Translations under genes and position numbers: made by a program
Part shown: positions 1,223 through 21,489 of the stretch, piece after piece
Position numbering within the stretch: the stretch's first letter is position 1
Layout of the letters: each line of letters opens with the position of its first letter
Assembly (NCBI GenBank): GCA_029378245.1
Contig: JARKIF010000009.1
Coordinates: 1-64,000 of the forward strand
Direction of reading: 5' to 3'
DNA from: Roridomyces roridus
Lineage: Eukaryota; Basidiomycota; Agaricomycetes; Agaricales; Mycenaceae
Length of the DNA: 64,000 nucleotides
The notes under the pieces: generated by a model
Told to the model about the DNA's origin: nothing
What the model saw: the letters and a program-made list of their open reading frames with translations, nothing else
Databases searched by the model: none

Positions 1223-2732
1223 TGATGTATGTGCTCTAAACTACTATAGAAATCAACCAACTCAAAACAACAAGACTAGATGAGTCTCGATACAGACGAA
1301 TCTATATCTAAACAACCCAATCACGAAGCTCGGAGCGAGTGACAACTATATTGACAGCAGGCGAAGGCGAGTATAAGTCCCTAGTACAGGGCCTTATGAA
1401 AGGTTGTAGGGATACTGTGATATTGTCTCGATATGATTGGTCGAGTTTTGTATTGCGAATCAAAATCCTTGATGAAAACCAAGGATGGCGATTCTAAAGC
1501 GTTTTGTAGATTTTAAAGCTTCACAAGCTAACACAAAAGATAGATTGAGTTTGGCTAAAGCCGGGTTTTTGCAATAAAGCAGGTATTGGGTCTCTCGATC
1601 CTTTTACACTGGTATCTGAAGACGACAGCGACCGATACAACACGGATTTCACAAATTCCAACAATTCCTGAACCAATTCCTGACACTGAACACACAACCA
1701 GACCCTAACTGACACACAAACCGTACCAAGCCGTAGCAAGCCTTCCAAAGCTGCCACTGAGCTGAAACCCTAATCACAATCCAACTGGCACTCGGACCAA
1801 CTATGCTTCAAACTCGATTCACACAACAGGAGCCAACAAACAACAATTTAGATTTCAAGGGCGATTGCTTATTCTACGCAATGCACCTTCGAAAGCCTCG
1901 GACAAATCCCGTAGTCGCAGCTGGTAGCTTGCTAGTGGGGGAAGTATCCGTTTTCTTCTTGGGTAACACTCTATCTACTTTATACATGTCCGGGAATCAT
2001 ATGATAGTACAAACGAATGGCGCAATAATGATGAATCTCCCACGTATCCTGAATAGAAACGACCTGATTGGTTGATCTGGCACTGGTGCTCAGTCAGCCA
2101 GAGCGCCAAGCATGATTCAGCATGTTATCTCGTGATTCCATCGCTGATCCATGACTCGGACAGTTTGGATATCTTGTATCCCTTCTTCCCCTCCAGAGTA
2201 TGGCCTCAAAACGTACTCCCACGTGTTGTAGGTTTCGAACGATACCCATATCTCCCACTCTTGGTCTCGGATACCAGCAGATACTTGACCAAAAGTCCGT
2301 ATCCAAGCCGGAATCCACTTGTTCCGACAGGTGATGGCTACTACGTCACTTCCATCGGACCCGTCTCGGCGGTCTGCTCATGTTTCAGGTCATTCGGCCG
2401 ACTTGCCTATCATTCCGTGAACTCCCGAACCTCCGAATTGCACTTGCACCAAGGTTCGAACTGCTGACAATCGTACAACGGTTAAGAACTGTTTAATTGG
2501 TGTATCCCATTGGTAAGGCAGGTATCCACACCTCCTACGTGTTTCGGAGTGAGTCCATCAGTCGTATCCAGGTAAATACCCTTCAACCTGTACAGTACTC
2601 TAAAGTATCCACCATACTGACTGTCTCTGGGCTCGACATCAGCTCTCGTATTGAGATCATATAGTATGGAAACCACATCTGAAATCGTGCAAAATACGCA
2701 TTTTCAAGGGCAGTCAAATTCCATGCTCATCA
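1223..2732 (+). mobile_element. LTR-like insertion (TGATG...CATCA), 1.5 kb, non-coding
   Basis: This segment starts TGATGTATG and ends GCTCATCA, so it has TG...CA termini with a short inverted TGATG/CATCA. It is bounded by the 4-bp direct repeat GCGC (1219-1222 and 2733-2736). Deleting it with one GCGC restores the host KDZ reading frame exactly. It holds a TATA-like TATAAG near 1371 and AATAAA near 1573, as expected of an LTR with U3-R-U5. Roughly its first 650 bp match a second, oppositely oriented copy at 20681-21483. No coding region and no second LTR are visible inside. A TGGTATC motif near 1610 resembles a primer-binding site, so an LTR plus leader remnant is an alternative. Family assignment is tentative. 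Confidence 0.6.
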
Positions 2733-2736
2733 GCGC

Positions 2737-3826
2737 AGATGCCCAGCATGCTCAAGGCGTACTCGGCTTTCCGTGCGCGCGGCAAGCCAGACAAAGGGGA
2801 CGAAGGCCAGCCAGAGCTTTACCAGGTCACGGTCATTGATCTTTTCAGTGCGTGCCTCGTTTCTTTCTTTTCATTTTCGATCTTACCAGAGGTCCAGCGG
2901 AGCAAAGTGAGACGCTATCTCTTCCCTGGGTTGTGGGGGTTTTTCAGCCGCCCTTCTTAGACTCGGCCTTGTGCCGTCTGTGCCGTGGACGCCCACTTTC
3001 GTCTTTACCATGGCCACCCTCGACTTCTATCGTGTCTCCCATGCCCGGTGTCCTCAGTTTTCGATATACGCCTTTACTAAAACCCTGGCTGATTTACACG
3101 GGGTGCGTGGGTTTTATTGCGCTCCCTCAGGCTGTTAGCTGACTTTTTTTTACAGGTTCCTGTTCGTTCGACCATGCATCAACACTTCTCCATCGCCCTC
3201 GACCTCTACCTCGACCTACGTCGACGTACGGAACTTCAAGTATTGACACACCTTGGCCACGAGGATCCCGCCTGGCGAATGAAGAATTGTTGTCCGGCGT
3301 GCAGCTACAGGAAGACGAGTTAATTTTCAGCATGCTGGTCACGATGGACGGGAATGACTCGTTGAAGCGGGTTCTACGACGCGGGCCCGGTGATGATGGC
3401 CCTGGGGAGACGAATGAGCGCTGGGATGATCGCGATGCAAGTGACGGGTATTACCTGCCGCGCGCGCAAGTCGATGAGTGGGCGAGGCGCCGTCTGGCCA
3501 ATATTTTGCCTTCGGATGACAATGTGAGTTTTTCATTTGATGAGTATTGTTTTGAAGGTTAATGGCTGGGCAGGGAGCGGAAAATCCGTGCAAGGAGCGT
3601 TGGAAGAATATGCTGAACGACGTGACAGCAAAAATGTGGGGCATCTTCGACGAGACGGGTCTGTTTCTATGCCTGTGTCGACACGGGTTTGCTCTGGTTA
3701 TGGTGGACATGCTGCGCAGCGGGGAGCTGTAAGTCTTTCTCCTCTTGAGCTTCAAATCTTACTGAATGACTTTGTCAGGTCTAAATATCCTCTGGCTGTG
3801 GTCGAGCACCTCCTCAAGCATTTCGG
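2737..3826 (+). pseudogene. KDZ transposase (older host copy), middle segment
   Basis: Continuation of the host KDZ gene. Successive exons give 'PSMLKAYSAFRARGK..YQVTVIDLF', 'LLRLGLVPSVPWTPTFVF..ATLDFYRVSHARCPQF', 'LADLHG' joined to 'VPVRSTMHQHFSIALDLYLDL', then 'HEDPAWRMKNCCPACSY', 'IFSMLVTMDGNDSLKR' and 'CKERWKNM', 'KMWGIFDETG', 'RHGFALVMVDMLRSGEL', 'SKYPLAVVEHLL'. These blocks match the KDZ pattern, including the 'MDGNDSLKR' block that carries a probable catalytic Asp. One base is missing near 3312, between 'CCPACSY' and 'EDELIFSM'. The segment stops inside 'KHFG' where the 15-kb element enters. Introns lie near 2846-2890, 2912-2951, 3102-3155, 3523-3577 and 3729-3778; the first two boundaries are least sure. 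Confidence 0.8.
3818..3826. repeat. 9-bp target-site duplication GCATTTCGG, left copy
   Basis: It directly precedes the AGCCGTAGCTGTA terminus of the 15-kb element. The partner at 18840-18848 follows the opposite terminus. Both lie in the host codons for 'KHFG'. Dropping the element plus one copy rejoins 'EHLLKHFG' to 'VDIGVGYDIGC' in frame. The real duplication may be 8 bp with one base shared by chance. Confidence 0.85.
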
Positions 3827-3922
3827 AGCCGTAGCTGTAATATGTAGCCAAAAACATGTGGCCGTAGCCATGATGCCAGATTACTTCAACACTGGAGCTA
3901 GCCATGCCCTGGCTACAGCCCT
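3827..3922 (+). repeat. Left terminal inverted repeat of the KDZ element
   Basis: It aligns imperfectly with the reverse complement of 18745-18839. Both begin with CCGTAGCTGTA after two bases, share TAGCCAT-ATGCC in the middle and end with GGCTACAGCCCT. Several GTAGCC/GGCTAC hexamers occur in both orientations, as expected of transposase-binding subterminal repeats. Confidence 0.75.
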
Positions 3923-4130
3923 CTGCTCAACCTCTATATACTGCCCCTACCCAGCGGCAAAATAGGCCGGTCTGGACCTGCTCCTGCCTCTTTTGTATAT
4001 TATTTACGGTTGGAATTTATTGCCCGCCCCATCAGCACACCAAATACACAAAAATTCTTGATGCATCAATCCTGTTTGCTGGCTACGCTGCCGCTCCCTG
4101 CCGCCCCTCGCTTGCCACGTCGCTTAATCG

Positions 4131-4190
4131 TGCCCGCCCTCGCGCCCCCGCCCTCGCGCCCCCGCCCTTGCGCCCCCGCCCTCGCGTTCC
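4131..4190. repeat. 14-bp GC-rich tandem repeat
   Basis: The unit CGCGCCCCCGCCCT is repeated about four times with small variations. It lies in the non-coding left arm of the KDZ element. Confidence 0.8.
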
Positions 4191-4274
4191 AGTTTACCGC
4201 GCTTGCACTACGCCTACCTCGCACGGTGCGTACAAACCTATTCGCTGCTCATTTCAATCCCTCCCCATCCTCAT

Positions 4275-4440
4275 GCCGCGCGCTGTAAACCGTCAGTCCG
4301 AGACTCGCCCCTGGGACTCCATGCTCCGTTTGCCGCTGCTATATATATTCTTGTTTTCATCTTTCCCCCTTCCATCCGACACCGCGTTCTGTAAACCGGC
4401 AGCAAGAGACCCGCCCCCTTGGGACTCCCATGCTCCGTAT
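4275..4440. repeat. Two diverged ~56-bp direct repeats
   Basis: Copies at about 4275-4330 and 4385-4440 share CTGTAAACCG, a run of GAGAC-CGCCCC and GGGACTCC followed by ATGCTCCGT. They are separated by a TATATA-containing spacer. Function unknown. Confidence 0.6.
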
Positions 4441-4879
4441 TCCGGCCTTTCCCTCCATCTGCTCCATTCTTTCTTTCCCTTCCCCTGCCTTCCCTTCCCT
4501 TCCCTTCCCTTCCTCCTTCCCTCGTTCCAGTATGCTGCTGATGAACGGGCGACCTACAGCTACACCCTTGCCACCGGGCAAAGCCTCATCCCACACGCCC
4601 ACGAGACGAACGTCCCGAACTCGAGGTTCATGCCGGCACCTCATCCCCGCCCTCCCTGTCCTCTCCCCGCTCGAAATACCGCCTTCATTTCGCCGCACAC
4701 CGTCAATTTCCTGCTCCAGACGCGTGCTTGAGACGCACTCCAGCGCCATCCCGACGCACTTCCTCCCCCGCCCCAGTCTCGTCTCGCTACAGCCATGTAC
4801 ATGTGTACTTACCCAATTTTTTTTCAAAAAAAACCTGTCCATCACGTCGACATGATGGACCCTCAGTAGTAACGTCTTA

Positions 4880-5001
4880 TCGCTAGTATGCCGTACTGGT
4901 AAATGGCATGACCTGACTCCGTTATCTTCCGTGGGAAGGCTGTGGGTTCGACTCCCGCTGGTAGCATTCATCAGTCCAATTCTCAACCTTTTTTTTTTTT
5001 T
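4880..5001 (+). ncRNA. tRNA-derived SINE-like Pol III unit
   Basis: A B-box-like GGTTCGACTCC at 4945-4955 forms a good T-arm (GTGGG and CCCGC flanking TTCGACT) and is followed by CTGGTAGCA, like a tRNA 3' half. A looser A-box-like TGCCGTACTGG lies about 50 bases upstream. A run of 13 T at 4989-5001 would terminate Pol III. The acceptor stem pairs poorly, so this is not a functional tRNA. A SINE head or tRNA relic inside the KDZ element's arm is the best reading. Confidence 0.5.
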
Positions 5002-5149
5002 CTCTCTTCAATTTACGCATTCAAGTCACTGTAGACAGCATTTACAAGTCCATTCCATTCGTACATTCACATAAAATTACAATCATAAGCGGTATCATAC
5101 GACATGAAGAGGAGACACAGAGATACGAAAAGAGGGCAAGAAAAAAAAA

Positions 5150-8100
5150 CTACGCCGAGCCCTGCGCAGCTGCACGAAGTCCATAGAACGCCATCTCGGC
5201 GTCATCCACCGCCTTTTCCCACTCTTTCGACAACCCACCGGCCTCCTTCTCCGCGCAACCCCACCAATACAATGCCGCCACCACACTGTAAACACCATTC
5301 AGCCCCGGCGCGACCAAGACCCCCCAATCCTGCAGCTTCTTATCCCCCCAGCCCGACGCGTCCTTCGAATGCTCCACACGCCACGCAGGCTGCATCGACT
5401 TCCACCACGCCCGCCACTGCTCTTTGAATCTCGCGAGGTCAGTGATCGTCCGGTTATTCTTGCGGCCACCGCCGATCCACTGCGCCACCTCGGTCGGACG
5501 ACCTCCAGAGGGCAGAGAAAGGTACCCACCCACCCTCATCACCTCGTACTCCGTTTCCAAGCTCCCCCATGCACGCAGCAAGAAGTCAAAACTCCGGCCC
5601 AAATCCTCGCCCGTGATCTTCTGAAGCTCAGCCTCAAAGAACGCCGGAGCATTCTCCGAGATTTCCACTCCAATACGATGATCAGCATCCTCGTCGGCAG
5701 AGTTGGGCGGTGAATCGACGACAGGGGTGTGAGGAGAGGGCTCATCGAGCTCGGGAGCAGATTGAGATTCGACGTGGGGAGTGGGAGGACGCAGATCTTC
5801 GAGGGCCGGTGCGCCATGGATATCGACGTTGGCAGCGGCAGGAGCGAGGTCTTCGAGGGAGGGTGCGCACTGCATCTCCACATCCGGATTGGGAGGAGGC
5901 AGCTCGTCGAGCGAGTGCTGCATTTCGACGTTGGAGGCAGCATCGACGACGAGAGCAGTCGTCTCCTCGAGAGCGGGCGCGGGTTCCATCTCGACATCGG
6001 AGGCAAGAGCTGGGGACTGCGAGGAGGTCTTCGTCGGTCGAATCAGCGCATCTGCAGCCAGCATCTCCTTGAGGGAGGGACGGCGCGGAGGCATAACGAC
6101 TTGGACGGGAACAACGGGCTGGATGGGGATGTTGGGCTGGATGGCGACGACAGGCGTCGTATCCGGAACAGGCGTCGCAGGTGTCGTTTGCTGGGGAGCA
6201 GACGGTGTAGACTCCATACTTGCCGCGGGTCCAACGGCTGGAGGAGCGGGAGGAGTTGTAGCAGCTGCGACGGGCGGCGAGCTGGTGGTGGTGCTGCGGG
6301 TAGAGGGGCGGCTGCCCGGTAATGGCCTTACAGGGCGAGGGCGAGGCGGCTCCTTCGCCTTCGCCTTCAGACCCAACGCCTTGGTCCCGGGGCCCAAACC
6401 CATTTTCTCCATCAACTCGCGATTCTGTTGGGCGCGAGCGAGGTGTTCGCGGTAAAGGTCGGGCTTGGGATTCGCTGCTCCTCCTCATCACTCCCATCCT
6501 CGTCTTCGTCTTCATCCTCATCCTCGTCGTAATCCTCCTCCTCTAGATCCTCCACTGCATGGGCAATCGTGTAAAGTGCGCCGGACAGGCCTGGGGTCGA
6601 GGCGGATGGTTGTCGGGGACTCGTGCCTGCCAAAGCAGCGTTGGCAGAGTCTTCCGCAGCTGGAAACGACTCATTAGCATGTCGTCGCCGTCTTCATGTA
6701 ACATGCACTTACTGTAGGCCGTCCCAAGATACTGTTTGTAGAACCCCGAGATGTTCGTCTGGAACTTCTGCTTCTGCCAAGCTGCGAAGGAGACGGGTAC
6801 CGTCGCGTTGTTGCGGCCTACTGCCAGACTACGCCGATTCGTTAGTTTACTCCAGAGCCAACAGGAAAAAAACGACTCACTGAACGGTACTGATTTCTCC
6901 TCCGTACTTGGGCATTGGACCACCCACGACGATGAACGCTTGACACCCAGTGTACTCCGTGATTCCTTTCATAATTGGCGTCAGGAAGCGGCCCAGATTG
7001 TTGATGCAGCTATGGCGTCGCATTAGCACCGAAGTTTTCAAGCTGCACCGAATATCACCTACTTCTGTTTGGCCTCGGGCGTCTGGGAAGGTCCATCCTT
7101 CAACGCCTTCAAGTACTCCGCCCTCTTCTTCGCACCCTCCTCTTTGGCACGCTTGGCGTATTCATCCTGCTCCACCTTGGGCAGCTTTTTGAAAGCGGTG
7201 CGAGCAACGTCGGCACGGAAGGCAGCTTTCGGAGTCTCCTCCAAGGCCACGGCGTCACCATCATGCAGCTCCTTCCAGGCGTCGGCGACGAGCGTGCGCT
7301 GTTCCTCCACCGTCTCGCGCTGGTATTGCTGATACGCCTGGCGCGACTTCGGGGGCATTTTCAGGCCGGACAACTTGGCAGTCAGCACATTGAAGGGGTT
7401 GAGGGCGTTGCCTTTCTTGGTGGCGGTCGGCGCGTTGACCTTGCGTGCACGGTACTTGAACCAACGAGTAATGCGCTGGAGGAGGAGATTCAGGTGAGAA
7501 GAGAGTCGGTGATGCTGAGGTAAGACACTTACATCATTCAAGACGTTGACGCGAGCGATCTTCTCCTCGCGTTCTTTCTCACTCAACTCTTCCTCGGGCA
7601 AGGGAACTGTGGGGTCGTACTCGGGGAGGGGAAGAGTTGGCTCCTCGTGATCAGCAAAACGCCAGTCGATTCGCGCATGGTACTCGGTCAAGACGCGGTG
7701 AAGGAAGTCCTGCTCAGCCCGGGAACCCTGGGCAAGCGCGTCCAAGTAGCCGTCTTGGTGAGGCGTTAAGACAGTCTCGCGAACACCCTCCGCCCAGTTC
7801 TTCAAATTTTGCTTGTCGATCTTGTCTTTCTTCCTCGACGCACGCTGTTTTGCCTTGATCTGGGCAGTGGTCTTCTCGGCGGGGGCGGAGGCGCTTTTGG
7901 TGGCACCGGTCTGATCGTCAGACACACTGTGCATGCGGGTAAGCGTCTATTTTTTTTGGAAGTAAGTAATAGCGTTCCAACTAACCTGTCAATGCCAGTC
8001 GCGGTCTTGGTATTCGCGGCGGGGGTGGAGGCGCTTTCGGTGGCACCGGTCTGATCGTCAGACACACTGTGCATGCGGGTAAGCGTCTATTTTTTTTGGA

Positions 8101-8532
8101 AGTAAGTAATAGCGTTCCAACTAACCTGTCAATGCCAGTCGCGGTCTTGGTATTCGCGGCGGGGGCGGAGGCGCTTTGCTTCTTTTTGGTGGGCTTGGTC
8201 GTCGATCTGTGCGTGACAGTGAGCCTCGAAATTTTCCCTGCCAGCAATAAAGCTCACCTGCTAGTGACACTCGCATTCCCAGAAGACGCGTCGTTCCCGG
8301 CTGTGTCGGTTTGACTTTCAGATGTGCTGTGCCCGACGGTGAGTCTCCAGTTTTTCCTGCAAGCAAGCCATAGCACTCACCTGCTGGTGACACTCGCAGG
8401 CGCCGAAGACGCGTCGTTCGCGGTCGAAGGGACTGTAGTGTCCCTAGTCGTGTTGTTGCCCGTCATTGGCGACGGGGTCGACTGCGCGGGAGTGGACACA
8501 AGTGCGGTGCTGCTGTCTTGACCCTCGGACAT
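5150..8532 (-). CDS. Conserved agaric KDZ-cargo protein of unknown function
   Basis: Multi-exon gene starting with ATG at 8532. The N-terminus is Ser/Thr-rich and built from repeated small exons. Next comes a basic stretch ('IKAKQRASRKKDKIDKQNLKNW'), a region with 'HHRLSSHLNLLLQRITRWFKYR' and 'NPFNVLTAKLSGLK', a charged helix, then exons giving 'FLTPIMKGITEYTG' and 'VVGGPMPKYGGEIST', 'FAAWQKQKFQTNISGFYKQYLG', an Asp/Glu tract and a proline-rich region. The last ~170 residues form a Trp-rich globular part ('TDLARFKEQWRAWWKSMQPAW'). I recall this architecture from agaric genomes, often near KDZ transposases, but know no function. A frame change near 6470-6500 may break the gene between the acidic tract and 'RELMEKMGLGPG'. 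Exon boundaries are approximate. Confidence 0.7.
7877..8170 (-). repeat. 140-bp tandem exon-intron duplication in the cargo gene
   Basis: The segment reading '..SVSDDQTGAT(K/E)SAS' plus its intron (with TATTTTTTTTGG and TTACTTACTTCC) occurs twice at exactly 140-bp spacing, for example TGGCACCGGTCTGATCG at 7901 and again at 8041. A third partial unit follows. The copies are almost identical, so the duplication is recent. Confidence 0.88.
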
Positions 8533-9477
8533 GATGCTGGTACAGAGTGGGTCTTTCTTCACGATAAATGGCGCGTTGGGACTTACCAATGGTTTTTTTG
8601 TTTAGACTGAGGTGAGGCGTGTAGTTGGAGGTAGTTGACAAGAAAATTTCAAAGACAGGTGAAGCGAACCAGCAATCTCTCTTTTAGAGCCGACGCCTAG
8701 ACCCTTGAAACCACCTGATTGTTTCGACGCGTTTCGGCGCCTTCAGAGGTATAACTTCCTCTTCCCCACTTTTTGCTTTTGTTCTGACCTCTTTCTCCGT
8801 CGTGTTCTCAGAATTCCTCCTCTTCCCCCTATAATGAACACTTGCTCAATTCAAATTTCCCCAATTCGGTGCCTGCGCTCCCACCCGATTCACCGGTAAA
8901 ATCTTAACCGCTTCCTTCTATCATATGACGCATTTCTAGGTCCACATGATAATTACATTCTTCGCCAGCCGCATTCTCCTACAAACCTGGTCCTGCCTAC
9001 TCAGCTCACGGCGCTCGACTCTCTGCGGTCCCGGCTGACATTATTACAAGACACCAAGAGCAGCAGGAGTCGGTAAGTTTACGCCAACCACATGCTCTTA
9101 TCATCGATTGATCATCCAGGTCCGAAGCGTCGCATGCCGCCCAATGCCCAGTTACTCCTGCTCGCGCCGCAATCCAACGCGCACACATTACATCTGTCTA
9201 CATGCTCCATTGGTCTCAAGACTCAAAAGCACTGGGTGCGTTGAGAGGCGACGCAGCGCGTTTTCTTATTCACTTTGGAATAGGGGTAGTAGGTACCTTC
9301 AAGCTCGGAAGCCTGGGCAGCGCTCGCAAAGCTGACCTGCGGGGATATCCGTCGGGATGAGATTTGGGTGCTTGCTACTTCCTTCCTTCCTTACTGTCAA
9401 ATGCAATACATGCATGTTTTGCCTTCATGGGATAAATGCCAATGAATTCAGTACCGAGCGATAAGATATATGGGTAA
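8533..9477. other. Intergenic within the KDZ element
   Basis: No supported gene. This probably holds the promoter and possibly a 5'-UTR intron of the minus-strand gene starting at 8532 (a donor-like ACTTACC lies near 8581 on the plus strand), and the 3' flank of the gene ending at 9478. Short open frames on both strands lack recognisable features. Confidence 0.5.
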
Positions 9478-10108
9478 TTATGCAGCGTCCTTGCAGCCAG
9501 CCCACTCGCGCTCCCGGCGTCGAAACTCCTCTGCATACTTGCGCATTTCCTCCTCCGCTGCTTCCCGCCGCTGCCTCTCCAACTTCTCGCACCGGTCAGC
9601 CCAAGCCTTGTGACCGTGCTTCTTTTCAAACGCGCTGCAAAACTAAGTCACCGGAGGAATAGGGGAGCGGGAGAGCCTACGACATGCGCCGGATACGCTG
9701 GCGATGTGCGAGAGTGTCGGCATGGCTGGAAAAGCAAGAGACCTTCAGTTCATCATGGGGTGGAGACGGAGGCTGGTGCACGCACGAGGCACGGTATTTG
9801 CGGCTGGCCTCGCGCGCGCGCGCGCGCTGAGCCTCCAGCAGCTCGGGTGCTTCAGATATCTTCTCTCGATGTCTAGATAGTGGAAGTTTTAGTGGACTTG
9901 CGGTCAGGGAATCGTACCGGCGCACGCACTTTTCCATACGCTCCCTAGCCTTCTCTCTCAATTCCTCTAAGTTTCTGGGCAAAGGTAAGGCTTCGTAGAC
10001 CTGGAGAAGTAGCTCAAACCCATACTTCTCCCGGTACTTGGCTGAGGCCTGCCGTAGTGCCAACTTGGTGGCCGCCGTTTTGGTGGGGATGCTTTGATCT
10101 TTGGCCAT
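9478..10108 (-). CDS. Small basic helical cargo protein
   Basis: Starts at ATG 10108 ('MAKDQSIPTKTAATKLALRQASAKYREKYGFE..') and ends '..RRRERAGCKDAA'-like at 9478. About three short introns join 'MEKCVRR' to 'HREKISEAPELLEAQRARAREASRKYRA', then 'HADTLAHRQRIRRMS', then 'AFEKKHGHKAWADRCEKLERQRREAAEEEMRKYAEEF'. The product is rich in Arg, Lys, Glu and Ala and should be mostly helical or coiled-coil. 'SRKYRA/SAKYRE' recurs. A CG dinucleotide run near 9809-9828 encodes alternating Ala-Arg. No catalytic motif is visible. Its position between other minus-strand genes inside the transposon marks it as cargo. A DNA- or protein-binding accessory role is only a guess. Confidence 0.55.
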
Positions 10109-10600
10109 GATTTCCGGCGGTCTGGAGAAACGAGGAGGACTAGAAACTTGAATGGGCAGAAGCCTGAGTTGCAGGCGCCAGAGAATGAGTGGAACGAGAG
10201 GAAACAGAGTGTGTCGAGGAGGAACAGTGGTGGTCGAGAAGCAAGTCTTGCTGTAAATATCAGTCAATTGGATGCCTCGCCCGGACTTCATCCTGGTATC
10301 ATTCTCATGTATCCTAAAAATCCCAAGAAAATTTGAGTGCAGGATGACATGAATATGAACAACTTTGTCTACTCAGTTTTTTGTTCCAAGTGGATGGGAC
10401 TCCAAAAATCGATGTTCGTTCCAGAAATTGGGCGACCGTCATTTCGTGATATACCCGTCGTCAGTTCGCGATATCCTAGACTTGCCGCGTTCTCACTCAA
10501 AATTCTTCGTCTCGGCCATATACCAGCTCTTATTCCACGCCGCATTGACATAAAACTCGTATGCGATTCAATTTTTTGTCAAGTACACGAAAGGCGCTGT
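10109..10600. other. Intergenic within the KDZ element
   Basis: No gene seen. It separates the basic cargo protein's start from the RING gene's stop. Moderately AT-rich, with no repeats noticed. Confidence 0.5.
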
Positions 10601-11552
10601 CTACGTGGAATGACGACGAGGGAAAACAAGCCCTCCCCAGGAGTAGTCCACCATGCTCCGGTCGTCCCAGCTGGGATAATCATTCCTCATTGAATCTTCC
10701 TCGCCATAATGGCGAAACGGGGGGTGCTGGATTACCTGCCGACAGAGCGGGCAGTCACCGCGTTTGTCGAGCCAAGCGCGAATGCAGACATAGCAATGGC
10801 TATGTCCGCAGGTGTATCTGTAAAACGGACGGGACGTCAGTGAGTATTCCAAAGGGACGGTGGGTGACGTACGACACGGGATGCGACTTGGGACCGAGGC
10901 AGATATCGCAGCGGTGGTGGTCCTTCAGCTCGGGGAGCTCGGGCGGCCGATCGAGCGTGAGCCAATACGAATTGCCCACATCGGATGGGACAGGCACGGG
11001 GGTGAGAGGTATGACGGGGATGGCGGGAATGACCGGGCTGTCCTCCTCGTCGTCGCTATCAGGACGAAGACGCCATCGCACCTTCCGAATCGGACCAGTC
11101 CCTCGGGATTGCACTTGACGCTGACACTCTGCCATGACACGAGCATCGTGCGCGCGCTTGGCACGCTCGGAGCGCTGCCGGGTGCGCTCCTCAGCCTCGG
11201 CATGGGCTTGACGCTCCTCAGCAGCAATGCGTGCCTGGATCGAGTCAAAGGCCGCGCGCGCCTTGGCTTTGCGTTCAGCCTTCTTCTTTTCGGTGGGGTC
11301 TTGTGCGCGAGCGACAGGCCGAACGTTGGCGTGCAGGCGTGAGGCGCGGATGGCTTTACCGATGCGGGTCTTGGACTTCGGGCTGAGCTGGATGATGCCG
11401 TCCGCATTCAGCTGGATGGGATGGCCTACAGCGTAGAGTCAGTTCTGGAGAGCATGAGCCGCGGAGAACGCACCTATCGCACGCACGACCTCCGTTGGCG
11501 TAATCGGCCATTGGCTGGGATCCTTGGTGAACGATTTTTTGCTGGACGACAT
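10601..11552 (-). CDS. RING-finger (C3HC4) cargo protein
   Basis: Minus-strand gene starting at ATG 11552 ('MSSSKKSFTKDPSQW..'). After one intron it enters a long Ala/Arg/Glu-rich helix ('AERKAKARAAFDSIQARIAAEERQ'), then a loop rich in Pro, Val and Ile. The C-terminal RING finger begins 'CDICLGPKSHPVSY' and, after an intron near 10820-10870, continues 'TCGHSHCYVCIRAWLDKRGDCPLC'. This gives the Cys/His spacing of a C3HC4 RING with CPLC as the last pair. RING domains usually recruit E2 enzymes for ubiquitin transfer. The substrate is unknown. It ends with 'YSWGGLVFPRRHST'. Its neighbours are other cargo genes on the same strand, so it travels with the transposon. Confidence 0.78.
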
Positions 11553-11658
11553 GATGGGCAAAGCCAAGACGCAATCGCGACAAGACAAGATCAGAGTGCA
11601 CATGGAACGAAGGTGATGGTGATGGATGTGAAACGGATGTATTTGCAAGTATTCGAGT

Positions 11659-13190
11659 CTAGATACGGAGTTTTTCGACGGTAGAGAAAACATGAGTGGC
11701 GTCAGGCCAGCTAGACCAAGTGGGAGGAGGCGCAAAGTATTGGGTGATGGAGAACCGTGTCTCCCCCGACCGAATCACGGCAATTGAGAAACGCATGAGG
11801 GGTGGGATGAGGAAGGTCGTCCCGGCTGGGAATTCCACCACCTTACCCATATCCCATAAAATGAGATGCCCCCCGCGTGTTGCGTCAAAGCTACCGAATG
11901 CGGTTAGCGCCAGCCAACACCACCGCGCAATGGGCGCGTCAGGTCGTCCTGGTGGGGTCACCGCCTGGGGTCCGAGGTCGAAAGTGATGTTGGTCCAAGG
12001 GCCTGGAGAGACGGGGTGAAGATGCGGGTAGCGAGCAAAGAGGCCGGCCTTGAGTTGCTGGGCAATGTCGTAGCCCTTGGGAGCCGACCGTTGGAAGGAG
12101 TCTGAAGCCAAGTAATGAGAGTAGGAAAGAGGAAAGCGGCGTGAGAGTCACCTCGGGCAAAGCGAAGCCAATCTCCGATGGTCTCGTTATTCATCAAAGA
12201 CTCGACCGTCATGAACTCCGCCATATCGTACTGGACGTTCTCAGGACGCTGAGGGAAATGTGAGTGAGAGCTTCAATTTGGACACATTACTGACCTCCAA
12301 ACCCTCTGGGTAGTGAATACCCGCCGTTATGGAAGACCGCCTTCCCTCAGGCAGATCCTCCGCGTACAAGCCCGCCAGAGAAAACGCTCGGTTCACGTCC
12401 GCAACCATGGTCTCCACCTTACGCTTCTGCGGCTTTCCGACACCCATGAGCATGACGAGCCCAGTGCGATCCTCGAATGGCAGAAGGTCACTTCAAATCA
12501 CAATCAACAGACGAACGAGAAAGAACTGAATACACCTACTTGCCAGGCCAGCAGACAAGCTCGAACTTCTCCCCAAGGACGACTTCCCTGTAGGTGTATA
12601 CTCGGTCGTACGGTGCCCATGTATCGTCCCAGATGTGGTCGCGCTGCGTCCAAGGCGGTCTTGGGCGGGGATCACGAGGAAACTCGGCAGCTCCGCCAAC
12701 GACTGGAGCCTCCCCGTGTTCACGCGCTGCATGTCCACGAAGGAGGCTGCCGAGCTCTTGGTCCTCTCCTTCATCCTCACCCGCGACCAATGCCAACTCG
12801 TACGCGGGGTCGTCCGAAGATGAAGACTCGTTTCCGGCAAACCTCTCACCGCGAGCAGCGCGCTCCTGAAGATTCTCCGTCCTCAAACGCTCGAAGATGT
12901 CGAAGGTTAACCTCGTGTTTGGGGGCAGTCCCAACAAAAGCAGGGGAAGTCTTCGACCATCCGGTCGGGCAACGCGGGCAGCTTTTGCGGCTATTGAAAC
13001 GGAGGTCAGTAGAATGCCATAGTCAGGGTAACGACTACTCACCTGAGAGTTGCATGATGTAGGCAACGAGCTCAAGGTCAAGTTCAAGGTCAAATCGAGC
13101 AGAAAAAAGGACGAGACGTATGGCGAAATGATGCCGCTTAATAGCATCAACTCGAAATCGTTTCTCCAATTTCTTGATGACGACCGCCAT
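11659..13190 (-). CDS. TET/JBP-like 2OG-dioxygenase-fold cargo protein, probably catalytically dead
   Basis: Minus-strand, about five exons. The start is uncertain (ATG 13190 gives 'MAVVIKKLEKRF'). The middle contains 'PWTQRDHIWDDTWAPYDRVYTYREVVLGEKFELVCWPG' and 'VMLMGVGKPQKRKVETMVADVNRAF'. The C-terminal ~150 residues match the KDZ-linked TET/JBP pattern I recall: '..NITFDLGPQAVT', 'WCWLALTAFGSFDATRGGHLILWDMGKVVEFPAGTTFLIPP', 'ETRFSITQY'. That family oxidises methylated bases or thymine using Fe(II) and 2-oxoglutarate, with an HxD pair and a distal His as iron ligands. Here the expected PHxD region reads 'TPPGRPD' and the expected 'LRHSN' reads 'LMRFSI'. Both His ligands are therefore absent, while the 'GGHLxLWD' core and the Arg before 'FSITQY' remain. 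The 5' end overlaps the divergent gene at 13174. Confidence 0.68.
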
Positions 13191-13775
13191 CTCAAAACCG
13201 GAGCAAGCACTCCCTGATGACTTACCTGAGCTGATCGAAGCGCCCGCCAGCGACGACGAGGACCAGGCTTCGAATGACAGCGACGACGACGAGCCGCCGC
13301 CGCTGGAGGATGCCGACACCACCAAGGATGCTCAACCCGACACCAAGAACCCTCCGCGGGTTTTTCAGCAAGCACGCGTGTTGTTGGGCGGCCCAACTGC
13401 GACCTTCAGAGGGGACCAAGGCGAGTCCAGTGTGGCCGTCGCTGTCTGTCAACTGACATCAATGCAGCTTACAATACGGACGCGTCCGTTGTGCCTTTCC
13501 TCCCTCGGACCTTCACGATCGCTCCCACCTCAAGCTACGACATCATGTGTCAATATCCCATTAAGTGCGTGCAGCATTATCTTTTTATCCGCTACTCTAA
13601 TGATTTTCTCAGCTTTCAAACGCACAAATCACCCCACAGCGACGCTCATATGAAGGAATGTAGTGTTCGTCTGAACGCTACGGTGGAAATGGGGCATCTG
13701 GGCTTGCCGATGGTCGGGGAACAGTGCGAGATGGTGTGGACTCAGTTCCAAGCGAAGCCTCGTGCCAAGCTCTGA
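13174..13775 (+). CDS. Small acidic protein at the head of the transposase arm
   Basis: Three exons. Exon 1 (13174 to ~13429) encodes 'MMTTAISKPEQ..' and a strongly acidic stretch with Asp/Glu runs. A very short intron (about 13430-13467) leads to 'YNTDASVVPFLPRTFTIAPTSSYDIMCQYPI'. A second intron (13565-13612) leads to 'FQTHKSPHSDAHMKECSVRLNATVEMGHLGLPMVGEQCEMVW' and the stop at 13773-13775. 'SSYDIMCQY' resembles the KDZ core motif 'SYDIACQW', so this may descend from a transposase fragment. The 38-bp first intron is unusually short and its boundary is uncertain. The start overlaps that of the opposite-strand TET/JBP-like gene, so one of the two start calls may be wrong. Function unknown. 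Confidence 0.5.
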
Positions 13776-13906
13776 GCTCCGAAGCCTCGGGCGCCGTTGG
13801 GATATGTTGCATATGTTATTCGTCTTCTACCCAATCAAGCACCCCAAAAACTCGTTTCAGATAAGCCGTTTGCCCCAAGCATTGCTCTTTACTAACCACC
13901 CCCATC

Positions 13907-14524
13907 ATGTCCCTCCCTCTCGACGACATCTTCCGCGCAGCTCCCGTCGTTGGCCACGGACGGGTCGTCGGCACGAACCCCCACTTTTTCGCAGACAATC
14001 TCCGCCAAGCTGCGCAAGACCCTCTGATTGTGCAGCTCGCCGAGCGGCGCTATCGGCAGCTAGCTGGCAACAGCGAGGCGCCCGTCTGCTGCGGCTGGTG
14101 CACGCGCTCGCTGCAGAATATGGGCAGCCTGTTTTTCTGCGAAGAACGGTGCTGTGGTGAGGTGCCTGCTTGCGCGCAGTGCATCTCGGTGTTGCATGAG
14201 CGAGCCCCGTTTCACACGCTGGAGGTGAGAACGCTCCTCTCGTCTCGCACTGTTTCTGGTTTTGATCTTCTTCAGGAGTGGATCTACGACGGCGAAGATT
14301 GGGATCCGGGAAACACCCTTTCCGCCTTCGACGTCGACTACGTCTATCAAATGGGGCATGAGGGTTTGCCGTGTCCCCGCCCCTCATCTAGGCTGACGCA
14401 GCGCGCCGTGACCCGCCCCGACGGCGGGTATCTTCTCTGGTGTCGGGGGTGCCGATGTAATGATGCGGCGGGGAATGCGCGGCAGAGCGCTCAGAATGCG
14501 GTGGGGTATGCGACGGGCCCATAG
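13907..14524 (+). CDS. Stand-alone CxC2-like cysteine-cluster protein
   Basis: Starts ATG 13907 ('MSLPLDDIFRAAPVVGHGRVVGTNPHFF'). An in-frame 51-bp intron (14225-14275) joins 'ERAPFHTLE' to 'EWIYDGEDWDPG'. Paired cysteines occur in 'CCGWCTRSLQNMGSLFFCEERCCGEVPACAQCISVLHE', then 'YQMGHEGLPCPRP' and 'LLWCRGCRCN'. This parallels the CxC2 cysteine cluster of the adjacent transposase ('CGPCGTAW..FRCVHCGEFLQCAECLRQRH', 'EWTGTHWTDAQL', 'YQLGHGGFPCQKP', 'LCYCGC'), but the protein stops before the RNase-H-like core. It lies about 170 bp upstream of that transposase on the same strand. A zinc-binding accessory or competitor of the transposase is plausible but unproven. Confidence 0.7.
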   Translation: MSLPLDDIFRAAPVVGHGRVVGTNPHFFADNLRQAAQDPLIVQLAERRYRQLAGNSEAPVCCGWCTRSLQNMGSLFFCEERCCGEVPACAQCISVLHERAPFHTLEVRTLLSSRTVSGFDLLQEWIYDGEDWDPGNTLSAFDVDYVYQMGHEGLPCPRPSSRLTQRAVTRPDGGYLLWCRGCRCNDAAGNARQSAQNAVGYATGP

Positions 14525-14695
14525 TTTCGTTTTTTTTTTTTGTACCTACATCCCTACATCGAAAATGCGTCGTTTTTTGTTTTTTGCCATCTTGTCCCAA
14601 TTGGGAAGGTTGATACCATCAGCCGCCATCAGTCTTTGCTCTCCCGACCATGCGACGAATGGCTCGGCTACTGCTCCCTCTTGGCTCTCCTCCAC

Positions 14696-17600
14696 ATGCC
14701 TGGCCGGCGCCGCGATGATACAGTGCACTTCGACGCCGACGTTCCCGACTTTGTCGCCGACACCGTCATCGAGGTCTCCACAGACGGCCAGCGAAATTTC
14801 ACCTCGTACACCGATGTTCGCCCTCAGAAACGACCCCGGAACCCGGTACCCGAGGACCTAGACGACTTTTATGCAGGCTGGACCCCCGTTCTGGATGAAG
14901 AAAGCACGGTGGAAGCGTTGGCAGACACCATCTCTTCCCTGGACATTGAGGTCGAGGAGGTTGACACAGGCAAGCGCAAACGCTACGAAAACTCCGTGAG
15001 TGGGCTCTCTCCGACTTCTAGCCACCTTCCTGACCCTGGTTTCGTTCCAGGACGACCCAATGGGTGCCTGGCGTCCGCACGCCCAGTCCTTTCTCGACCG
15101 AATGATGAGGCGACACTACATAGGGCGCATCCCCAAGTGCGGCCCTTGTGGAACTGCTTGGGAGAGTGGCCAGCGTATTTTTCGCTGCGTTCATTGCGGA
15201 GAGTTTTTGCAATGTGCGGAATGTCTGCGACAACGTCATGCGCTCACCCCGCTGCACCACATCAAGGCAAGTACTATTCAATTTACTGGTGTGCGATGCT
15301 CAACGAGACTCCAGGAGTGGACTGGGACCCATTGGACCGATGCTCAGTTGTCAGGGCCGCAGAATTCGACGGAACGCCGCACTGCAGCGGAACGAAGTCG
15401 AGGTCGATTGTCCGGGGTAGGACTCGTCTACCAGCTCGGGCACGGTGGCTTTCCTTGCCAGAAGCCCGGCTCGATCCAGCCCATGGTCGTTGTCGACACT
15501 ACGGGCGTGTTCACCCTGGACCTATGCTACTGTGGATGTCGTCCTTGGGAAGGGACGAGTACCGTCAACCAACTCATCGACAATGCCTGGTATCCCGCTA
15601 CTGTCGTCGAGCCCGCGACGTGTGCAACGTTCCGGGTGCTTGAAGAATTTTGCTTGCTGAATGTTGTCGGCAATGTGAGCGTCAACGATTACATCGGTAC
15701 TCTGGAAAGAATGTCCGACCCCTTGATGTCTGGTGATCTGCCGGTGAGTTTCTCAGATTGCTAGGCGCACGAGACGTAGCTGACACTTCGCAGGATCGTT
15801 ACAAAGCCTTTGGTCGAATGACCCGGCAGTACGACTTCCTCCAAAGGGCCGCGAGGACCGGCTGGGCGCAGACGGACAATGGCCTGTCCATGATCACCCC
15901 GGGTGGTATGGCAGTCCTCTGCTGGTCGTGTCCCCATCGCGATATGAATCTCCCGGAAGGCTGGCAAGATGTGCCTCCGAAATACCGGTAAGCATTCACC
16001 TTGCCTGGAACACGGATGGCTGACGACGTCCCCAGTTTTCTTTACATGATAATCCTCGCCCTTGACGCCAATTTTCGCCTCAAGAATCGATTGCGCGCAA
16101 ACGAAAGGCATAACCCCTCGCTGGCACCGGGCAAGTCTTATTTCGTCGAAACGGACCCTTACAAGGCGCACTTGAAGAACTACGTGGCCGAGAAGGATGT
16201 ACGTGATTTCGATTCTTTTCTTGTCGGCATCTCATTGACGTGCTCGCAAGGTCAGTTCTTGCATCGCCTTCGCTGCCTTACTCCAAAAGGACACCCGCGT
16301 TACCAAAGGCTTGCGTGTTTCGGGAGTCGGGGGGTGCGTTTGTGCACGACATGGGGTGGTGCGCCCGTTGGGGATGGGGGATTTGCAGAAAGGAGAACGG
16401 TACGCCTCTGATCTACCCAATTTTGATGCAATGACTGAAACGATACAGCTACGCTAATATGGACTATATACTCCTTTCAGCTCTCACGGGCGTGGCCGTG
16501 CTCTGCGTGGCCATCTCCTACGATATTGCTTGCCAATGGAAAATCCATCTGGCCACGCGCGCGGAGAGTATCACCGAGACAACGCAAGTAACGACCAACC
16601 TTCAAGATTTCGAAATTCAGTATGGCCTGCCCGTGTGGCACGCAGCCGCTCACGAGATCAATTGCCAAATGAATAATTCCCTGAGCTACGCGGTGGGAGT
16701 GGGTCGTACCGATGGGGAGGGAATCGAGCGCACTTGGGCGGTTCTGAATCCCGCGGGGTATGCGACCAAGGAGATGGGCGAGGGCGCACGGCACGACTCC
16801 CTCGAGACGAAGGTGGACCATATCAACTTCGAGAAGAACATCAAAGAAGGTGAGCTATACTCGTTCTTCTGGTGACCAGTTTCTGACGGATTGCTATCCA
16901 GGCGATTTGTTATCGCGCAAGCTCATTGTCGCGATCGCCGAGCGCAACAAGCAAGTGGAAAACTTCAAGGAGGTCAATTCGACGCTGGAGCCCGACTTGC
17001 GTAAGAAGTGGCGGATGGAGATCGAGGAGTGGCAGCAGGATCATTCCCAGCGCAATCCATACGTGCTGGCGATACCGAGCGGTGGGTTATTCCTCTGGAG
17101 TCAGCGCAAGAACGAAACTTACAGTACATAGGAGGGATCAGTGAGGGAGCGGTGCTGCGGGAGCTGAAGGAGCAGGATGCGGCGGAGGCAGCGGAGGGTA
17201 ATACGCCGGCAAGCGCGACCCAAATGACGGCCCCTGCATTCCTCAAGGCTGGGCTTCAGATCGAAGATGCTCAGTATGTGTATGTTTTCGACTGCAGGGC
17301 GTTAACTAAGGACGGTGTTACAGGCGTCGTATCAAATCTGAGCTCAAGGGCGTCACTATCGTCTCCGCTGACCGGTCAAGTCAAATCCAAGAACTCCGAT
17401 TGGCGCTCCTCCGCAAGTTCCGGACGTACGAAACGTTACAGGACGTTTACATGCCCGGGGTCGCGCTGCTGCGGCGCGAGGCTGAGGCGTTACGGGACTG
17501 GGATGCGCCGCCGCCAAAGGCAGAAGACCTGAAGCTTTGGCTACCGTCGGAGCTCAGCGAGGAGCAGCGGCGTAGCGCGTGCCGCGCGGGACTGGGTGCG

Positions 17601-18539
17601 ATGGAAGCGCGGTTACGGGAGGGTCAATGTGCGGATGCCCTGAAGGATCTTCGGGCGCGTTTGCACACGCAGCGCTTTCTCGTGACGTGGCGCAACGCCA
17701 ACGCGGTGGGGCAGAAGGGGTCAACACGCTCCGCTACGCTGATTGGTTGGGTGGGGGATCGTATTCAGCGAGTGGCGATGAAGTATCGCCAGGCGAGATC
17801 GTCTCTGATCGCGGTGAAGGGGGAGGGCTATGCTCCGCATTACAAAGAGCTGCGGCAGGAGGACCTGAGCATCGGTGTGGAGGAGGAGAGCGACTCTTCG
17901 GCGCGCAAGCAGCTGGCTCGTTTGGGCTCGAGAAAGTCCCGGAATGAGCCCGCGGCGCTGAAGAAGCACTTCTCCTGGATTTGGACTGTGGCGGGTGGAC
18001 CCAACGAGGACGACGAGGCAGCTTTGCATGATTGTAAGCGTCGCCGCGCGTTTTATACACTTGGGAATGCTAACAACACGATTTCAGCGGTACAGGTGGA
18101 ATGGTCGAAGGCGCGCGCCCGGCGGGATCGTTGGGTGGAGGAGGTGGAGCTTTTGCGGGAGGAGATGCGTAGGACGATGCGCATGCTCCGCTACATTCAG
18201 GAGAAGTGGGGTCATGCGTTGGACCTGCGACCGGATGCGAATGTCGAGGTGGCAGCGGGTGCTCGCGCGTATGGTCAGCTGCAGATTGCTGTCCATCACC
18301 AGATCGCGGAGGCTTTTTTTACTGGGTGGAATCGGTCAATGGCGACGGCGGTGAAAGACGTCATTCGGCAGGACGGGACTGTGTACCGGGAGATCTTGGA
18401 TGGGCATGGAATGGACAACGCGCCGAGTGTTGGGCTGGAAGATTTGGAGGAGGCGGAGGCGGGGACAGGGACAGGGGCATCCGCTGCCAGCGTGGCAACG
18501 CGCACCCGCAGTCGGGCAGCACAAGCGAGGGGCGGGTGA
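14696..18539 (+). CDS. KDZ transposase with CxC2 cysteine cluster, apparently intact
   Basis: ATG 14696 ('MPGRRRDDTVHFDADVPDFV'). Exons assemble into a protein of roughly 1,000 residues. The N-terminal third holds the CxC2 cluster (CGPC, CVHC, CAEC, GGFPC, CYCGC), then 'CATFRVLEEFCLL', 'YDFLQRAARTGW' and 'LCWSCPHRDMNLPEGW'. The core has 'FLYMIILALDANFRLKNR' (first Asp), 'GMGDLQKGERYANMDYI', 'AISYDIACQWKIHL' (second Asp), 'PVWHAAAHEINCQMNNSLSYAVGVG' and 'RTDGEGIERTWAVLNP' (probable catalytic Glu), then 'RHDSLETKVDHINFEKN'. The C-terminus is helical and ends 'RTRSRAAQARGG'. Introns lie near 14996-15050, 15266-15312 (GC donor), 15744-15793, 15988-16034, 16199-16251, 16399-16447, 16850-16900, 17081-17131, 17275-17322 and 18035-18088. 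I see no frameshift or internal stop. It should excise and insert the 15-kb element. Confidence 0.85.
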
Positions 18540-18744
18540 TGGTGTATCAATACGGCGTTGTGTCGAGTACAATTGTTCTCGAGTAAAATGATTGCATTAT
18601 TTGATGTATCCTCATTCGGAATTAAAAGAATTGATCTTGAGATGATTGAATTCACGAGAAGTGATCAACAGGAGCGGAATACAAAGGTACATACAGGCTG
18701 GTAGGCGTAGGGCAGCATAGGGACAGGCTAGGGGGAGTGAGGAA
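18540..18744. other. Right arm of the KDZ element, non-coding
   Basis: About 200 bp between the transposase stop and the right inverted repeat. AT-rich, with ATTAAAAG near 18621, probably the 3' UTR and poly(A) region. No gene. Confidence 0.5.
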
Positions 18745-18839
18745 AGGGCTGTAGCCATGCCCTGGCTAGAGTCGGTGCAGAAGACATGCGGCATTATGGC
18801 TAGATCCATACCCATAGGCTTTAGGCTACAGCTACGGGT
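18745..18839 (-). repeat. Right terminal inverted repeat of the KDZ element
   Basis: Reverse complement matches the left end: ACCCGTAGCTGTAGCC at the outer edge, CTAGCCATAATGCC in the middle and GGCTACAGCCCT at the inner edge. The match is imperfect but collinear over about 95 bp. The base after it begins the second GCATTTCGG copy. Confidence 0.75.
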
Positions 18840-18848
18840 GCATTTCGG
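18840..18848. repeat. 9-bp target-site duplication GCATTTCGG, right copy
   Basis: Identical to 3818-3826. It is followed directly by GGTCGATATTGG, which continues the host KDZ gene in the same frame that was interrupted at 3826. Confidence 0.85.
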
Positions 18849-20629
18849 GGTCGATATTGGGGTCGGCTACGATATCGGGTGCCACTTCTGCACCACTCTC
18901 GACAAGAGCGAGCTGGGACCCAAGGCGCGCGAGGCTCGACTGCGGTGCCTTGTCGGATCGTTCCACGGGCACGCCCACAATCGACTCTGTCAAGTCTGCT
19001 TCTTGGCGTTATACGTCAAGGGGCTTGGGATTGAGGATCTGGAGGGGTGTGAGCGCCGCTTCTCCAGAAGCAATGCACTGGCGGGTTGTTCTCGCCGTGC
19101 GAGTCGGTTCCATCGTCAGCAGGAGATCACCGGGTATTTCAAGCACATGGACGACTACGACGTGTACGCTTCCCTCGGTATGTCGACTTCTCTCTCTCGC
19201 TGCGACATGAACGCTGATCTCATTGCTTAGCGACATTCCTCTGCTCCAATTATGAGCAGTCTTTGAAGATCTTGGACGACGAACCGATTGTTAGGCAGAT
19301 GATGAGGGACGAGGATGTTGTGGATGGAGAGGAGTTTGTCCAGGCGCTTGCGGACGAGACGGTATATTTGCAGGAGCTGTGGAAGAGCTCCAAGAAGGCG
19401 GAGGATACTCCCGAAACCCGCTACGTTGCTTGCCTGGTAGCAGAGAGCGCTGACTTGTGAGTCTTCAGCCCATCTCTTCTGCCTGTATCTGACACGGGTG
19501 TGCAGAGCCAAAGTCACGGCTTGCAGGGCAGCCGTTCGCCAATCGCGGTCGGACGATGCAGCTTTCACGCCCGGCAAGACCAAGGCAGACATGGCGCTTC
19601 GGCATGCGTTGGAGAAGAGGGAGCGGAGCGCGATGGCGCTGGCGGATATCGAGCAGGAGCTTGGAATCACAACGCGCTGGACCCCGACGAGCCCAAGTTA
19701 CATTGCCGCCAAGGAGGAGGCGCGCTCGCTGGAGTATCAGCGTGCCCTTGATCGACTGGAGCTCCTCGTCGTGGAGCGTCTGTTCGAGCTCACCAAGATG
19801 AATCAATCCGGCACCGGTGAGTTTCATTCTATTCCTTCTATTCCTCTTGCTGATTTCAATCCTAGGCTACAAGATGCGAAAACACATTGCAAAATCTCTA
19901 CAGGCTCGCTCCAAGGCTGTCCGATCCGCGGTCGCAAAGTACAACGCCGCTGCCGCTGCTGTCACCCCACCTCGGGATCATGTCGACATCGAGCAGGTCC
20001 TCGAATATGCGTTCCTCGCCGATTTCGACCTACTCCGTCACAGCCATCACGAAGTCCACCGCCAATACTGGGCCCGCCCTGCATATCGCGCCGTTATGAA
20101 CCGCTGGTTCCGCCTGGAGCGTGCACGAGAGGAGATCAAGCGACTAGATGTCGAAATCCGACGTTTTGTCACCTGGATGCGGGACGAGAGCGTGTTCCTC
20201 CATAAACGGGAGAGGGAGCTGCGGTGGACGGAGGGGAAGACGGAGCAGCAGGTGGAGGATGACCACGCCTTGGCCGTCCATCTTGCAGAGTACCGGGAGC
20301 GGAGGGGTAGGTTTGAGCAGTCGCACATGATGCGGCTGCACACGTTGAAACGAAGGTGGGGCACACGGTGTACTGCGTCCTTGACACCCGGCGTCCCGCT
20401 GCAGTCCGTTTCGCCCGACGAGGATGAGGAGGACCAGATGCTGGTGGACGCGGAGCGGGAGGTGGGGATGGCGGGAGGGGAGGAGCCCACGCGGCAAGCA
20501 GATGATGATGAGGACCACTCGGAGGGCGAGGATGATGAAGCGCATGATGAGCAGGTTTCGGACTTGCTCTTCAAGATCGCCGGCCTTGGGATTGATGCGG
20601 AGGAACGCGGAGAGAGTATCACAGAGTAA
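18849..20629 (+). pseudogene. KDZ transposase (older host copy), C-terminal segment
   Basis: The rest of the host gene after the 15-kb insertion. It opens with 'VDIGVGYDIGCHFCTTL' (second catalytic Asp region) and continues 'LVGSFHGHAHNRLCQVCFLALYVKGLGIEDLEGCERRFSRSNALAG' (probable catalytic Glu), 'RFHRQQEITGYFKHMDDYDVYASL', 'TFLCSNYEQSLKIL', 'LADIEQELGITTRW', 'YQRALDRLELLVVERLFELTKMNQSGTGYKMRKHIAKSLQARSKAVRSAVAKYN' and 'AFLADFDLLRH', ending in an acidic tail at 20627-20629. Introns lie near 19177-19230, 19456-19505 and 19815-19864. This half has no visible frame break, so inactivation comes from the insertions and the single deletion upstream. It belongs to a KDZ branch distinct from the CxC2 transposase inside it. 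Confidence 0.82.
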
Positions 20630-20680
20630 AATGTAGTTATTCAAAGAATTTCCTTTTTGAGCTAAGATCATGATGCGGGA

Positions 20681-21483: not shown

Positions 21484-21489
21484 GCGGGA

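Follow-up and report, generated by a model that had tools for sequence, protein, structure and literature searches.

The described elements closest to the KDZ transposon reported here, which lies near the start of a contig of the agaric Roridomyces roridus, are the TET-carrying Kyakuja elements of Agaricomycetes. In the consulted parts of Kojima (2025; PMC12730594), TET-carrying transposons have defined ends, with target-site duplications (TSDs) of 7 bp in Kyakuja and of 8 bp in Dileera and Zisupton, and two Laccaria Kyakuja families have 5'-CA..TG-3' ends and no inverted repeats. The H, D/E, H triad is described there as conserved in transposon TETs, and the TET genes of mushroom transposons are thought to strip silencing marks. 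For Coprinopsis cinerea, 32 of 46 Kyakuja-associated TET genes are given as likely active, so single inactive TET copies are known already. CcTet of this fungus (PDB 8jkk, 7w5p, 7vpn) is an active oxygenase with the metal-binding residues His326 and Asp328 (PMC12730594). KDZ1-KDZ3 of Cryptococcus neoformans, as described in the consulted sections of PMC12810828, are elements of ~9-11 kb with CxC1 and inverted repeats of 139-241 bp; their TSDs measure 8 bp for KDZ1 and 4-8 bp for KDZ2 and KDZ3. In Pleurotus, according to an excerpt of PMC7641404, intact KDZ genes are preceded by CxC2. The window analysed here (64,000 nucleotides, positions 1 to 64,000 of contig JARKIF010000009.1, assembly GCA_029378245.1) is the start of a 2.44-Mb contig, below called C491, in an assembly of 90.8 Mb. 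The element of the window is called W.

W was confirmed to belong to a genuine family of multi-gene KDZ transposons with exact boundaries. The features expected of KDZ elements were found: the PF18758 domain, inverted repeats with a TSD in the 7-8-bp range, and a CxC cluster with the transposase. Judged by described features rather than by transposase phylogeny, the W family has in common with TET-carrying Kyakuja a KDZ transposase, a TET/JBP gene within the ends, a 7-bp TSD and an Agaricomycete host. Unlike Kyakuja, it has 5'-GA..TG-3' ends with inverted repeats of ~95 bp, it carries a RING gene and a gene called A, and its TET-like gene, called B, has lost the metal triad. The 8-bp TSD of Zisupton was not seen. 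With the Cryptococcus elements the family shares a KDZ transposase and long terminal inverted repeats (TIRs); it differs from them in TSD length and in having CxC2 instead of CxC1, and the consulted sections on KDZ1-KDZ3 mention no TET or RING gene. The main interest is a TET-like gene, otherwise mostly kept, that has lost its metal site throughout the family, rather than the cargo as such. Taken together, W probably represents a cut-and-paste KDZ family with its own near-fixed gene set, nested in another KDZ element, whose gene B has a TET fold, lost its iron site and is under constraint.

A preliminary description of the locus, made from the sequence alone, had proposed an exactly bounded KDZ transposon at 3827-18839, with imperfect inverted repeats of ~95 bp and a flanking 9-mer. 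The inverted repeats were recovered, with a local alignment score of 97 (200 bp from each end) against a maximum of 38 in shuffled sequences (n = 300). The 9-mer GCATTTCGG is present on both sides (3818-3826 and 18840-18848) and nowhere else in the window, and it is weak evidence alone, with two or more matches also in 21 of 100 shuffles. Six more elements with both ends were found in the genome. In all seven the TSD is 7 bp long, perfect and in one register, and an eighth base fails in five of them on one side and in six on the other. A 9-bp duplication was thus ruled out, as the seven elements share 7 bp only; the repeat reads as a 9-mer because a host G flanks the target on both sides. From the common register and the terminal G at both ends of all seven elements, W is 3826-18840, one base further out on each side than proposed.

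The seven elements and their TSDs are:
W, C491:3826-18840, 15,015 bp, CATTTCG
C1a, C1:2350965-2377025, 26,061 bp, ATTCCGG
C1b, C1:1596344-1612098, 15,755 bp, AGATTTA
C113, 829681-844335, 14,655 bp, GTGGTCT
C334, 1765705-1779729, 14,025 bp, CCGGTGT
C449, 243424-257971, 14,548 bp, CCGCGAT
C485, 37865-70215, 32,351 bp, GTCCTGA

The ends of W are:
3819..3825, no strand, left TSD CATTTCG (7 bp; register from all seven elements, single copy at empty sites)
3826..3921, plus strand, left TIR, 5'-GAGCCGTAGCTGTA..., inner edge approximate (end alignment and family comparison)
18745..18840, minus strand, right TIR, ...TACAGCTACGGGTG-3', inner edge approximate
18841..18847, no strand, right TSD CATTTCG

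All seven elements begin with GAGCCGTAGC and end with CTACGGGTG, and the left end of C485 and the right end of C1b have one change further inside the terminal 13-mer. The terminal G was found at all nine family-type left ends (the seven elements plus C24 and C73) and at all eight right ends (the seven plus C223). The 13-mer alone was not in excess (21 matches vs 23 for its reversed control), and the boundary evidence therefore consists of paired ends around transposases, together with the duplications. Matches of the 13-mer at C7, C91, C146 and C334:1285798 were discarded as chance, the sequence beyond it not being family-like. With a 19-mer of the left end and up to two mismatches, all 12 places were family elements, two contig-end overlaps or C73; three mismatches added 19 places, of which two are right ends (C223, C485) and the others probably chance matches. 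The reversed control gave 85 matches. The TIRs of W contain TAGCCA/TGGCTA boxes at ~38, 72 and 83 bp on the left and ~43, 77 and 88 bp on the right, counted from the respective end. W, C1a and C449 have the full set, and C1b has two of the three per end; per 260 bp there are 2-5 boxes near the ends, against 0.05-0.10 in the interior. They look like putative transposase binding sites. No common target was found in the joined flanks of W, C1a, C449 and C1b.

As the preliminary description had stated, the flanks of W rejoin into an open KDZ frame. They belong to a second KDZ element:
1..3825, plus strand, host KDZ element, left part (the contig begins inside it), with an insertion of ~1.5 kb
18848..20882, plus strand, host KDZ element, right part, ending ...CCCAGAGGTG at 20882

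This host element is multicopy, with 41 near-identical and diverged matches in the genome. The uninterrupted junction (20 + 20 bp, exact) was found at five near-identical places (twice in C301, and in C151, C124 and C56). A sixth uninterrupted copy, in C90, has a small deletion, and this was rejected as an excision footprint because it sits just upstream of the junction. The empty sites share the breakpoint of W, in support of the earlier view that the whole stretch between the ends came in as a single unit. They are paralogous sites within the same genome, where a sister strain had been envisaged, and no allelic empty site was found, C453 and C235 being treated as contig-end overlaps. The host family has ends of the CA..TG type (5'-CACCTCTGGG...CCCAGAGGTG-3') and an inverted repeat of ~233 bp (right end in the window vs left end in C235), and one of its copies, in C301, carries a TET-like gene that retains HRD and the distal His. 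W thus interrupts the transposase of an element from a different KDZ family, one that was amplified recently.

The gene content of W was derived from a six-frame Pfam scan of the element (E 0.01) and from comparison with C1a, C449 and C1b; strands were chosen from Pfam, NCBI models and long conserved frames, and the models come from DNA alone. The scan listed only the KDZ, CxC2 and RING families: CxC2 with E 7e-27, KDZ (PF18758) in two frames, as exons, with E 7.7e-32 and 2e-15, and RING with E 6.9e-7. The two-armed layout of the preliminary description stood, with A, D, C and B on the minus strand and E and F on the plus strand:
5150..7934, minus strand, gene A, conserved frame, no stand-out family
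9478..10291, minus strand, gene D, short charged region with an uncertain model (joined to C in the NCBI model)
10601..11552, minus strand, gene C, RING-finger protein, part of P0007 (FB45DRAFT_1027397)
11659..13055, minus strand, gene B, predicted TET/JBP-fold protein without Fe ligands, P0002 (FB45DRAFT_1027398)
13865..14740, plus strand, region E, CxC2-like cysteine module by homology to the CxC2 part of the transposase, right edge approximate
14740..18539, plus strand, gene F, CxC2-KDZ transposase (CxC2 15408-15719, KDZ 16043-16827), start approximate

Besides the transposase and the CxC2 modules, W thus holds three or more other genes, where at least four accessory genes had been claimed. 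Region E, previously called a CxC2 mini-protein, aligns with the CxC2 part of F (score 128 vs a shuffled maximum of 55, n = 500) and has no Pfam CxC2 match at E 0.01; it may form the N-terminus of F or stand as a gene of its own. Gene A had no stand-out Pfam or PDB match (best E 0.15, scattered), and its single-sequence structure model was poor (predicted local distance difference test, pLDDT, 52). In C1a, C449 and C1b gene A is one continuous frame through its linker. W lacks 73 bp relative to C1a near 6475, which shifts the frame, and the W copy is therefore probably not fully autonomous.

Gene B is related to the fungal TET/JBP-like proteins P0004-P0006 (E about 1e-14), and a profile search gave no sequence match in PDB. 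CcTet, NgTET1 and TET2 head the match list of its predicted structure, a low-confidence model. The HxD/E...H metal triad is absent at all eight family loci with gene B, and the positions matching His326 and Asp328 of CcTet are not His/Asp. HxD is kept at all 11 other loci compared, seven of which have a detected KDZ transposase no more than 15 kb away, and the distal His at 10 of the 11; three of three foreign proteins keep both. At least three proteins added by a further profile search (8000 candidates) all have HxD and the distal His. Arg368 is invariant in all 23 alignment rows. The gene B tree separates the family from the rest with an ultrafast bootstrap (UFBoot) of 100, and the last exon is open at seven of the eight family loci. 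Of the marks of a TET/JBP protein, gene B thus has the sequence relationship and the predicted fold, and lacks the triad; it seems that the fold was kept and the metal-binding residues were lost. No TET lineage without a metal site appeared in the titles or abstract openings of the literature searched.

Between W and C1a, the ratios of nonsynonymous to synonymous substitution rates (dN/dS, NG86) were 0.37 and 0.39 for A with a 40-codon middle piece excluded, 0.22 for B, 0.15 for C, 0.37 for E and 0.13 for F, the value for F including an exon possibly belonging to E. In the comparisons with C449 and C1b they ranged between 0.12 and 0.45, except for B vs C1b (0.08, dS 4.8), and dS is saturated in these pairs. 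The dS values between W and C1a were 0.11-0.14 for gene A, 0.49 for C, 0.68 for F and 1.16 for B. DNA identity in 500-bp bins was 85-96% left of ~7.8 kb (one bin 76%) and 67-88% rightward, where aligned. Because of this lower dS and higher identity, the left arm (3826-7900) of the W/C1a pair is assigned, from the sequence comparison, a more recent common ancestor than the remainder (7900-18840). Such a mosaic is as expected from recombination between elements.

The gene set recurs across the genome; counts are lower bounds, by the search tool's own statement. The last transposase exon gave 79 matches. Nine family loci had 57-100% identity by piece, and the other matches reached 40% at most, except a 48-residue fragment on C2 at 60%. 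The last exon of gene B (72 matches) was found at eight of the nine family loci, with at least 118.5 bits, and no gene B match was found at C24; the best of 63 non-family matches had 73.9 bits. The first exon of gene A (18 matches) was detected at all nine loci, in the C235 and C453 overlaps and in one relic, C1:2199346. RING (six matches) was seen in W, C1a, C1b, C449 and C24, with one weak match elsewhere. No RING match was obtained at C113, C223, C334 and C485, where a RING below detection is possible. In the transposase tree, which separates the family from five other KDZ copies (UFBoot 99), these four loci form a group (UFBoot 88) inside the RING-bearing loci, which suggests that RING was lost once in the family, with weak rooting (57). 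RING relatives are multicopy in Mycena in the protein database (37 matches, 3 of them in R. roridus and 16 in M. galericulata). Gene order and strands agree at eight of the nine loci; at C24, A and RING are present and the transposase has the other orientation. The search for other copies proposed in the preliminary description thus found the same order in them, and only one of nine left-end loci was without detected interior genes. This end, C73:38952, is of the family type with a terminal G, and no interior gene was detected on its contig.

Starships of Pezizomycotina are boundary-defined fungal elements with several genes and a tyrosine recombinase as captain. W resembles them in having defined boundaries with several non-transposase genes inside; it has a KDZ transposase instead, and no recombinase family was found by the six-frame Pfam scan at E 0.01. 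The interior genes could be captured host cargo helping the fungus, as the term used in the preliminary description implied. We consider this very improbable. The genes keep their order and strand in relatives down to ~35-60% protein identity, and A and C have almost no genome matches outside the family at the sensitivity of the searches used. At least 39 of the 63 non-family matches to the TET/JBP-like exon have a detected KDZ transposase within 15 kb. Given the recurring order and the near-confinement of A and C to the family, the interior genes look like integral element genes, and the cargo label was dropped. An assembly artefact at the start of C491 is less credible still. The contigs C453 and C235 end inside the element at the point corresponding to window position 7658 and overlap C491:1-7658 with mainly indel differences (C453 with 19 mismatches and 77 gap openings, C235 with 24 and 72), and at the host element the left flanks are not the same. 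Counting them as independent or allelic filled copies was rejected as unsafe on these grounds, and they were treated as contig-end overlaps. The overlap stops short of the right end and of most of the interior, which are embedded in the 2.44-Mb contig, and the six other two-ended elements are internal to five further contigs. NCBI proteins are not independent of the C491 assembly as a check on this point.

A more serious alternative is that gene B is decaying, its metal site having gone first and the remainder drifting while the transposase carries it along. The frameshift in gene A of W, the last exon of gene B in C449, which is split over two frames, the stops or split frames in several family transposases, and the inactive copies among the C. 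cinerea TETs (PMC12730594, in part) would all fit such a process. Against it, the loss of the metal site is common to all eight loci, yet the last exon stays open in seven; dN/dS of gene B is 0.22 vs C1a and 0.33 vs C449 (the latter with saturated dS), and the Arg is invariant. We rate decay as unlikely, having raised it, and slightly lowered our preferred explanation, because gene B is broken in C449. That explanation, a mobile family with a constrained, metal-free gene B, also has to bear several further points. Mobility is read from ends and empty sites, and the roles of A, B, C, D and E are predicted. The structure model of gene B has a mean pLDDT of 56.7 (the half from ~146 is better, and uneven) and was built from a five-sequence alignment in which three sequences have an intact metal site. 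Gene B itself had no Pfam match, and its best-placed relatives were sub-threshold in Pfam (2OG-FeII_Oxy_3 E 0.025, Tet_JBP E 0.018). The gene-model script also gave opposite-strand models of the same regions, gene models are uncertain for A, for D and at the E/F border, and dN/dS averages over old lineages, with dS saturated beyond C1a.

On the preferred explanation, W would be a transposon of a Roridomyces family with a 7-bp TSD and a near-fixed gene set, as its ends, TSDs, empty sites and gene order indicate, and its insertion into a copy of another KDZ family interrupted that transposase. The CxC2-KDZ transposase probably acts on the ~95-bp ends with their three TAGCCA-type boxes. The alignment, the tree and dN/dS suggest that the iron site of gene B was lost before the family diversified and that the gene has since been mostly under constraint. 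Its product would most likely be non-oxidising, holding or shielding methylated element DNA or helping the transposase, and tagging of a host silencing factor is the probable task of the RING protein. We suggest tentatively, inclining slightly against it, that an anti-silencing TET turned non-catalytic and was kept by selection as a modification reader, shield or transposition cofactor, paired with a RING protein aimed at host silencing. With a TET fold that lacks its metal site, the two roles conceivable for such a protein, oxidation and binding, come apart and become open to testing. For measurements of KDZ mobility, the family offers a ready system in its exact ends, its seven delimited insertions and the empty sites of the same genome.

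Further insertions and repeats were noted around the family. The left part of the host element contains an insertion of ~1.5 kb (1228-2732) with a near-9-bp flanking repeat, absent at the six other near-identical places compared. Directly right of the host element, 20883-21487 belongs to a repeat that is at least ~605 bp long and recurs at 38 or more other places. The 96% match of C224:138108-139523 is confined to the DNA past this repeat, and this C224 segment may be an allele without the nested insertions. The insertion of C1a breaks a long open frame with a Cys-rich start, and C1a itself contains ~11.6 kb of extra DNA (C1:2360864-2372471), part of which is a tandem array with a period of ~173 bp.

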